From assembly GCF_022869805.1 (NCBI RefSeq), contig NZ_CP094974.1, forward strand, positions 4,526,001 through 4,590,000: a stretch of 64,000 nt of DNA, read 5' to 3'. The stretch is from Halosolutus halophilus (GTDB lineage Archaea > Halobacteriota > Halobacteria > Halobacteriales > Natrialbaceae). Below the pieces are notes generated by a model, which was given only the letters and a program-made list of their open reading frames with translations, searched no databases and was not told the DNA's origin. Shown here in pieces: positions 37,235-38,606 of this stretch; position 1 is the first letter of the stretch, and each line of letters begins with the position of its first letter. The position numbers and the translations under genes were made by a program.

Positions 37235-37332
37235 CTCCCGGTTCCATCCCGGCCGTGGAGGTGGTGAAAATCCGCCAGACGGCCGTGCATTCGCCTCGCA
37301 ACCGCTGTCCAGCCGCATCACCGTCGCATCGC

Positions 37333-38148
37333 ATGAGTGAGCAACAGGACCGATTCAACGGCGACACGAGGGTTTTGCACCGGCGAGCGGTCAGAACGCC
37401 GCTCCCGGACGAGGACGCCGAGCGGATGTTCCACCGGAACATGATGGCCGTCGCGGATGCCCGAGAGCGGAAAGCAGACCTGCTCGCCGACCCCGACGTC
37501 CCGTTGCTGGCCGCCTACGAGGCGGAACTCGATCGCCTCGCCGAGACGTTCGAGCGTCGACTCCGTCGGATCGCGGGTGACGACTACGAGGAAGCGGCGA
37601 TCGCGTACCACCGCGGCGAGCGCGACGATCGGATCGGTGCGCTCATCGCGTACTACGTCGAGGGTCTCTGGCGGATCCAGCAGCGGACCACCGTCACGGA
37701 CATGCTGTTCTCCCCGCTCATCCTGCGCTATCCCGATAGTTTCACGGTGAACATCCGTTTTGCCAGCGCGTACACGACGCCCGAATCCGTCGTCTACGAG
37801 TCGCCCGAGCACTCGACCGACGATCTGGACGACGAGCACGCCGAGACGTACTACGAGGAAAGCCTGTACTCACAGCGGCAGGCGGCGGCCTACGTCCGCG
37901 AGACGGCGGACATCATCCGCGAGCAGTTTCCCCACCCCGACGAGTCCTCGTTCGACGAGCGCAAGTACGGCGGCATCGTCGCGGCGGGCGGCCGGCGCGG
38001 ATCGGTCTTTTCGGACGTGCTCACGTCCGTGGAGCCGGATCCCGATCGGTTCTCGGAGCCGATCACCGAACCGACCCTCGTCGAAGAGGGCCGAGAGGCG
38101 AAGCGAACGGAACGGGAACTCTTTCCCCATAGCGACGTGGTCCACTGA
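37333..38148 (+). CDS. Hypothetical acidic cytoplasmic protein (271 aa)
   Basis: It starts MSEQQDRFNGDTRVLHRRAV and is rich in Glu, Asp, Arg and Tyr. A predicted helical region (RKADLLADPDVPLLAAYEAE, then LDRLAETFERRLRRIA) is followed by TDMLFSPLILRYPDSFTVNI and a C-terminal PHPDESSFDERKYGGIVAAG. I recognise no family, catalytic motif or membrane segment. It is followed by the structured gene-poor stretch before tRNA-Pro; a frame upstream of the ATG exists but lacks protein character. Confidence 0.6.
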   Translation: MSEQQDRFNGDTRVLHRRAVRTPLPDEDAERMFHRNMMAVADARERKADLLADPDVPLLAAYEAELDRLAETFERRLRRIAGDDYEEAAIAYHRGERDDRIGALIAYYVEGLWRIQQRTTVTDMLFSPLILRYPDSFTVNIRFASAYTTPESVVYESPEHSTDDLDDEHAETYYEESLYSQRQAAAYVRETADIIREQFPHPDESSFDERKYGGIVAAGGRRGSVFSDVLTSVEPDPDRFSEPITEPTLVEEGREAKRTERELFPHSDVVH

Positions 38149-38180
38149 GGTGGCGCGTGTAACGCGGGCGGCGAGTCCAC

Positions 38181-38360
38181 ACTTATTAGTGCACTTGTTA
38201 TTCCAAACTGCTTTGGAGTCACGCATAACTGTGTGTACACGTACCAAGGAAGTACGGCAGGGAACCACTTCATAACCCCCGGCTGTGACAGAACCGAACT
38301 CCTGCTCCCTGCCGCCCCACTCCCACGCTAACACGGTTGCACAGCTACAGCCGGATTCGA
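38181..38360 (+). ncRNA. Candidate structured RNA or mobile-element relic
   Basis: About 380 bases between the previous gene and tRNA-Pro lack a credible frame but hold several inverted repeats: CCAAA/TTTGG (38203-38216), GTGTACAC palindrome (38233-38240), CGTAC/GTACG (38240-38256), CGGCAGGGA with TCCCTGCCG (38255-38263, 38306-38314), and CCGGCTGT with ACAGCCGG (38279-38286, 38347-38354). The last two stems interleave, giving pseudoknot potential. A TATA-like ACTTATTAG (38181-38189) precedes them by the archaeal spacing. A transcript from about 38210 to 38360 is therefore plausible; transcription is unproven. Confidence 0.35.
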
Positions 38361-38533
38361 CTGGTTCACAGCACGGTCGACTCTACGACGGGAGTGCCGG
38401 TATCACTGTTACCGTCACCGATCCCGATCGGAACTCTACCGACATCATGACCACCTCCAGAAAGCGGTCGCCGATCGGTGTGTGAACGGTGACTGCAAAG
38501 CGGCAAAATTTCCCGCTTTACTTATATACCGTA

Positions 38534-38606
38534 TGGGATCGCCCGGATTTGAACCGGGGTCACGGGCACCCAAGGCCCGAAGTATACCAGGCTAACCCAC
38601 GATCCC
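38534..38606 (-). tRNA. tRNA-Pro (anticodon UGG)
   Basis: A 73-base tRNA on the minus strand, without encoded CCA. Acceptor arms GGGATCG/CGATCCC pair exactly with discriminator A. The anticodon stem CGGGC/GCCCG encloses the 7-base loop CTTGGGT, anticodon TGG. The T arm is CCCGG-TTCAAAT-CCGGG. There is no intron. On the minus strand a TATA-like CCTTTATGG lies about 30 bases upstream (plus coordinates near 38632-38640), and the 3' side is AT-rich. Confidence 0.95.

Follow-up and report, generated by a model that had tools for sequence, protein, structure and literature searches.

The stretch from 38203 to 38333 on the plus strand of the window (the whole 64,000 nucleotides of Halosolutus halophilus DNA that were analysed) is probably a small-RNA gene, one of a paralogous and lineage-specific family, with a palindrome that would be bound by proteins of the DUF7344 family and with RNAs that would pair with their targets in trans. 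The parts of this reading differ in strength. It is very likely, from comparison of the copies, that the family is one of expressed hairpin RNAs. Control of these RNAs by DUF7344 can be expected with more caution from the promoter that both share, and pairing in trans is put forward tentatively. The segment 38203-38314 is a genuine element whose homologs are spread over one haloarchaeal family, and the conserved 9-bp hairpin within it, which had been singled out in an initial annotation of the region, is the core of this larger element.

The element and its promoter-like block

The features of the element and its two neighbours are as follows.

38203-38216, plus strand: 14-bp palindrome CCAAACTGCTTTGG, putative regulator-binding site at about -51 to -38 (logo of 38 copies)
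38221-38228, plus strand: BRE/TATA-like stretch with a conserved A at -33 and T and A at -28/-27 (logo)
38242-38243, plus strand: TA at about -12/-11 (logo; shifted by one base in the window copy)
38253-38254, plus strand: predicted start TA, with the transcription start at A 38254 (logo)
38255-38263, plus strand: hairpin 5' arm CGGCAGGGA (pairing, folding, covariation)
38264-38305, plus strand: variable hairpin interior of the class D type (comparison of copies)
38306-38314, plus strand: hairpin 3' arm TCCCTGCCG (pairing, folding, covariation)
38315-38333, plus strand: C-rich tail past the stem, predicted transcript region (strand-specific bias of C over G)
37255-38148, plus strand: neighbouring HVO_2248-like gene (PF21535), outside the element
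38534-38606, minus strand: neighbouring tRNA-Pro (TGG), outside the element

The palindrome CCAAA-N4-TTTGG occurs once in the 64-kb window. A logo was built from the 38 of 70 loci that have a spacing of 53 in the promoter-like block predicted upstream of the hairpin, redundant copies included; of the remaining loci, 15 have a spacing of 55, 10 are unanchored, and 7 have other values. In the logo, CCAAA, four nucleotides, and TTTGG are followed by an A at offset 18 (36 of 38 copies), TAT at 23-25, T and A at 40 and 41 (31 and 26 of 38), T at 50 (37 of 38), A or G at 51 (31 and 7 of 38), and then C-GGCAGG. Read as an archaeal promoter, this would place the palindrome at -51 to -38, TAT at -28 to -26, TA at -11/-10, and the start on a purine. 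The BRE/TATA-like stretch at 38221-38228, with TAA in five class D copies and TAT in most others, is the putative core promoter, and its TATA-like box is weak. The initial annotation had instead pointed to a TATA-like ACTTATTAG at 38181, a place with almost no conservation in 38 aligned copies; the promoter-like signals of the window copy lie further in, at 38203-38254. A terminator in the form of a T-run was not seen in the element.

A hairpin with compensatory changes

Two perfect inverted repeats, the 9-bp pair CGGCAGGGA (38255-38263) and TCCCTGCCG (38306-38314) and the 8-bp pair CCGGCTGT (38279-38286) and ACAGCCGG (38347-38354), lie where the initial annotation had located them. It had also called the repeats dense and joined these two pairs into an H-type pseudoknot. 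The repeats exist, but they are no denser than chance, since 94 of 710 windows of 180 nt contain an exact 9-bp inverted repeat whose arms are at most 100 nt apart, and 58 of the 710 contain at least three 8-mer pairs. The 180-nt segment that had been marked folds only slightly better than its shuffles (z of -1.05 on the plus strand and -1.22 on the minus strand), and the interleaved 8-bp pair is absent from the relatives in genomes G072 and G073, which speaks against the pseudoknot.

The proposal of a structured RNA has fared better. Other copies of the element have the hairpin with compensatory changes, preceded at a fixed spacing by the promoter-like block, and the predicted window transcript (38254-38333) folds with a z of -2.87 against shuffles. 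Related genomes lacking such changes had been named as the sign against structure; the comparison was made, and its outcome favours structure. The outer stem GGCAGG/CCTGCC is kept in the family, while the length and sequence of the interior differ by class. Compensatory versions of the stem include GACAGG/CCTGTC, GGTAGG/CCTACC, and GGCAAGACC/GGTCTTGCC. Among six further copies, the folding z values are -4.22, -5.35, -2.00 (L105), -0.29 (L063), -4.34, and -2.95, so two of the seven copies (L105 and L063) fold weakly or no better than shuffles.

The pairing was counted in 54 copies, with near-identical copies and the minus-strand hits in L125 and L220 removed. With 3' arms picked for pairing, a choice that favours pairing and leaves a few arms visibly wrong, stem position 6 is Watson-Crick in 43 of the 54 (AT 23, GC 19, CG 1) and position 7 in 29, where 1000 shuffles reach at most 34 and 26, respectively; position 1 is Watson-Crick in 49, a value reached by 1 of 1000 shuffles. 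Positions 0, 3, 4, and 5 barely vary and are therefore uninformative on pairing, and at positions -1 and 8 of these non-redundant copies pairing is not above shuffles. The counts make no use of a MAFFT alignment of class A, in which the 3' arm was misplaced.

A 40-row alignment, which was fitted to a six-pair stem and whose related sequences easily exceed shuffles, has two-sided changes in 22 cells against 9.6 in shuffles and a covariation score of 0.132 against 0.072, with 0 of 500 shuffles as high in either measure. Double changes occur in 3 pairs (1.9 in shuffles; 72 of 500 as high) and there are 6 pair types (133 of 500 as high), neither of which is unusual. Four of the eight stem pairs never vary, and the covariation is carried by few pairs. 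When the stem was slid by +3 as a control, the covariation score was 0.137, yet 54% of the cells were paired compared to 93.7% in the true stem.

Covariation of a hairpin alone cannot separate an RNA from a cruciform in DNA, and a strand test that sets G-U against A-C pairs is not decisive (69 against 64 in the extended stem, 11 against 5 in the six core pairs). Both would suit an element that works as DNA, that is, a DUF7344 operator with a cruciform or a protein-binding dyad and without a functional RNA. Such an element is quite improbable, however, in view of the fixed TAT/TA/YR promoter geometry, the presence of this palindrome, with TAT at an equal distance, in front of DUF7344 coding genes, and a strand-specific depletion of G that sets in only downstream of the predicted start. 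In 57 non-redundant copies, the base composition upstream of the element is balanced (C 0.314, G 0.312). Within the hairpin C rises to 0.413 and G falls to 0.167, the 20 nt that follow the stem have C 0.473 and G 0.146, and 60-80 nt past the stem the composition is back towards balance (C 0.330, G 0.302). The window copy has 35 C and 15 G in the 80 nt of 38254-38333. This bias fits a plus-strand RNA that would be kept G-poor outside the stem.

A short coding gene or a degenerate coding remnant was also considered. An ORF of 66 amino acids (38285-38485) overlaps the element, and on the minus strand a hand translation that begins MK..PA shows a partial likeness between the window and G072. However, the same hand translation hits a stop in G073, the spacing of the stem arms changes from copy to copy without keeping to steps of 3, and the changes follow the stems, all of which makes a coding origin hardly credible.

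The hairpin RNA, as it is read here, reaches the threshold of no Rfam family. The initial annotation had recognised none, and in agreement with this, the only match in the window at the Rfam gathering level is to tRNA. A permissive Rfam scan of 38150-38533 gave four sub-threshold hits (two microRNA models, one lncRNA, and one sRNA model), the best with an E of 0.86. Guide RNAs of the box C/D type had no Rfam match. Checked by eye, the minus strand of class A has GUGAUGA with no matching D box noted, and class D is without GUGAUGA.

A family spread over one haloarchaeal lineage

When 38170-38450 was searched against 125 genomes of the family, G072 and G073 matched 38255-38313 at 77% identity, and the likeness extends over 38195-38316. 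These copies lie elsewhere than the window copy, between a DHH phosphoesterase-like gene and a convergent gene. A first covariance model, made from these three sequences, matched 64 of the 125 genomes at E up to 1. With the cutoff at an E of 0.01, the second model (R2, 40 copies) has 316 matches, distributed over 95 of the 125, with a maximum of seven per genome, and with it the covariance search suggested by the initial annotation has been carried out; the 316 include promoters of DUF7344 genes, such as the one at G000:C1:1707879. Among 195 sampled genomes of the order, the second model matches 20 at E up to 1e-4, all of them family members. At this threshold the other 10 family members in the sample have no match to the model, and neither does any of its 165 non-family genomes; 155 of the 165 were placed outside the family by their position in the sample table.

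The commonest variant was found in 26 stretches of contigs named as Natrinema, Haloterrigena, Natronorubrum, Natrialba, Halobiforma, Natronolimnohabitans, Natronococcus, and Natrarchaeobius, eight genera that all belong to the Natrialbaceae (NCBI). The genome of the window itself has clear hairpin elements at C1:4564194, 4456691, and 4353181, and a probable fourth at C1:2992654. On plasmids, a query with the class A copy of this genome gave one match, in Natronococcus occultus SP4 (NC_019976.1), at a place without an annotated feature.

Classes with their own gene addresses

Simple motifs divide a set of 97 copies, which includes two probable non-elements (the minus-strand hits L125 and L220) and some genomes under two handles, into classes A (53), B (12), C (5), and D (5), with 22 others. 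The interior of class A has CACATCATCAC and, in most copies, a small hairpin with the loop CGCCATACAC; that of class B has GGCACTGAACCATGG and that of class C CACCCACCAG. Class D consists of the window copy and those of G072-G075. Class A copies such as L104, L113, and L116, several of them linked to pspAB, carry some 15-20 nt past the stem a second GC-rich inverted repeat resembling GAGCCGNCGGCTCG, which is a possible terminator.

The classes keep to particular neighbours. In class A, 41 of the 53 copies lie 7-171 nt downstream of a gene ending in HPWE, which is pspAB (PF22742 in the one tested); of the 44 members of its BLAST cluster, 43 are left neighbours of an element. At this address the gene on the other side varies and the element stays. 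Class B follows a DUF7521 gene in 8 of 12 copies (one tested by Pfam), and an eight-member cluster of genes to its right is FAD-oxidoreductase-like by reading. A gene that reads as sufS-like is to the right of 12 copies, and a convergent GCS2 gene (gshA-like; one tested) to the right of five. The four class D copies outside the window follow the DHH-like gene, a label given by reading, as Pfam has no family for the gene to the left of class D (L063).

A further reading is that the element is a cis-acting leader or attenuator, in which the palindromic promoter drives a downstream protein gene and the hairpin in its 5' UTR regulates it. According to a rough gene call, element and right-hand gene share their strand in 65 of the 97 copies ('+/+' 56, '-/+' 8, '?/+' 1), the 12 sufS-like genes are 81-369 nt downstream, and the FAD-oxidoreductase-like gene is 140-215 nt downstream in seven copies. 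A leader is nevertheless unlikely. In class D, at the gshA-like genes, and in 5 of the 41 pspAB-linked copies of class A, the gene to the right runs the other way, and in the window the next gene is the tRNA-Pro on the minus strand. The pspAB address keeps the element while its right-hand gene changes, and the bias of C over G comes to an end about 60 nt past the stem.

Variants at conserved addresses show the behaviour of orthologous genes and not that of mobile repeats. This bears on the suggestion of the initial annotation that the region, which does lie on the 3' side of a tRNA gene as it had stated, is an attachment-type site. Several copies per genome, as well as a window copy at a tRNA gene, an address not seen in the other copies examined, would suit such a site or a mobile or repeat element (a MITE, an IS200/IS605 end, or an omega-RNA remnant). 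However, the classes hold their addresses across genera, and no transposase was recognised by eye in 22 neighbour-cluster heads. The tRNA 3' end has no second copy with up to three mismatches in the 64-kb window, and a tRNA is in the flanks covered at 5 of 60 element loci, the window locus included, so recurrence at tRNA genes is not a feature of the family. A search for phage homologs of the element found none. Taken together, a mobile origin is very unlikely. A single pattern match in a viral contig was read as unrelated. Also, the genomes G009, G015, G017, and G029 have second partial matches (23-31 bp) to the 3' end of tRNA-Pro, about 80-100 nt from the gene, and these might be traces of integrative elements.

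The window copy, although of the class D type, has an address unlike the other copies examined, between the HVO_2248-like gene and tRNA-Pro. In the congener G002 (L003), an open frame matching DUF7563 lies downstream of tRNA-Pro. The window has at 38382-38447 on the minus strand what looks like the remnant start of this frame (MMSVEFRSGS..., then a stop). Since only the start of the frame is left, the element was probably brought to this locus by a rearrangement.

A promoter shared with DUF7344 genes

The pattern CCAAANNNNKTWGGNNNNANNNNTAT is present in 79 of the 125 family genomes, while its reversed control is found once; the window copy misses the pattern by one base. Outside the family, the palindrome pattern has 12 matches in 10 of 296 genomes compared to 7 in 6 for the reversed control, which is near chance. 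A few sites in another family (L244, L245, L303, and L304, in G350, G336, and G287) precede other proteins and are either a related site or chance.

In a census of what follows the promoter, 95 unique promoters among the matches listed lead into a hairpin in 71 cases and into a DUF7344 gene in 20, with 4 unassigned. These are the unique exact matches of loci L190-L302, with L244 and L245 omitted as they are outside the family. The census lies mostly outside the hits of the first model and mostly excludes known hairpin sites, so the sample is poor in hairpins. A script called 64 hairpins and 5 DUF7344 genes, L226 was then moved to DUF7344, and reading by eye and by translation added 8 hairpins and 14 DUF7344 genes, with four sites left open. 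Pfam detects DUF7344 in 19 of the 20 promoter-linked genes, and L288 was assigned by reading. Among the sites read, the palindrome stands almost only before hairpins and DUF7344 genes, and finding the same palindrome before both is what is expected of a DUF7344 regulon.

The promoter-linked DUF7344 genes are of two kinds. In the short kind, the palindrome begins about 50 nt before the start codon; in the longer kind, it begins about 240-250 nt before it. The longer proteins have a hydrophobic C-terminal stretch (L220, L232, L274, L275, and L277) and are possibly membrane-anchored regulators. In the genome of the window, a palindrome promoter precedes a Pfam-confirmed DUF7344 gene at C1:1707888, and another, with an ORF that reads as DUF7344-like, straddles the ends of the chromosome record (G000:C1:1-110, C1:85). 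The palindrome of the short gene is about 50-500 nt from a contig end at L205, L206, L207, L209, L210, L212, L215, L246, L249, and L288, and this placement in draft genomes points to a neighbour that is repeated, for example an rRNA operon.

The predicted model of the DUF7344 protein (mean pLDDT 73.6) has the helix-helix-strand-helix-helix-strand-strand-helix order of a winged helix. With Foldseek, its best matches are chains of CadC, a metal-responsive repressor, at an E of 8.8e-3, and none is below 0.001. NCBIfam has no family for the DUF7344 protein of this genome, and the PDB has no sequence matching the DUF7344 profile.

How the system may work

In the proposed mechanism, a winged-helix regulator of the DUF7344 family would bind CCAAA-N4-TTTGG just upstream of the weak archaeal core promoter and so activate or repress it; the sharing of the promoter is what points to this protein. 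Transcription from about 38254 would then give a short RNA from the plus strand, with a 5' end that folds immediately into a hairpin clamped by GGCAGG/CCTGCC, with G-depleted loops and a C-rich, unstructured tail. As several DUF7344 genes have the same promoter, the regulator probably controls its own genes along with the RNAs. The latter would most likely use their C-rich, G-poor stretches to pair in trans with G-rich mRNA, such as Shine-Dalgarno or start regions. The copies beside pspAB, sufS-like, and gshA-like genes hint at envelope, sulfur, or thiol stress.

The chances are about even that all of this forms a previously undescribed archaeal system, in which DUF7344 regulators (some of them maybe membrane-anchored) and G-poor hairpin sRNAs share one palindromic promoter, whose output is almost only these two among the sites read, and RNA copies sit beside pspAB, sufS-like, and gshA-like genes. 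The hairpin RNA family is apparently undescribed. Among openly licensed papers, no paper on DUF7344 (PF24035) was found, PspAB is absent from the papers listed for it, and the titles and opening lines of abstracts on haloarchaeal or Natrialbaceae sRNAs do not contain this hairpin family. The significance is twofold: this is a first functional hypothesis for DUF7344, and a family defined by its sequence (up to seven model matches per genome), with a shared operator and a candidate regulator family, is directly testable in culturable Natrialbaceae.

Comparison with known systems

The element resembles a regulator-controlled sRNA in the way it would work and is not a member of a named family. To our knowledge, haloarchaeal sRNAs for which a regulator is known, or which form a conserved family or share a promoter, are few. 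In the archaea, sRNA154 of Methanosarcina mazei is reportedly a short, structured sRNA under the control of a transcription factor with a site at the sRNA's own promoter. The element differs in that it has several paralogs per genome that share their promoter with the genes of the putative regulator itself, and the two are likened without a sequence relation. Paralogous sets of sRNAs under one regulator are known from bacteria, as in the Qrr RNAs, and so are C-rich sRNAs with C-rich, G-poor pairing regions. The element may be analogous to both, with its several paralogs under one candidate regulator and its C-rich, G-poor regions, but it has an archaeal core promoter and no sequence relation to them.

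A haloarchaeal precedent for the layout of the promoter is found at the gas vesicle genes. The GvpE activator site has two 8-nt half sites with a 4-nt spacer and is adjacent to the BRE (PMC4390858), and as in the element, the half sites are 4 nt apart and directly upstream of the BRE/TATA. The palindrome may also resemble the activator site of the bop/Bat system, which likewise has two half sites with 4-nt spacing. The likeness to the GvpE and bop/Bat sites is drawn from their layout, and the element leads into hairpin RNAs and DUF7344 genes instead of gvp or bop. A further parallel comes from Haloferax volcanii, where the CsmR site is TATCA(N4)TGATA, a semi-palindrome that, like that of the element, has an N4 spacer and stands next to a TATA box (PMC13286277). 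The CsmR site and the element differ in their half sites and in the genes that are regulated.
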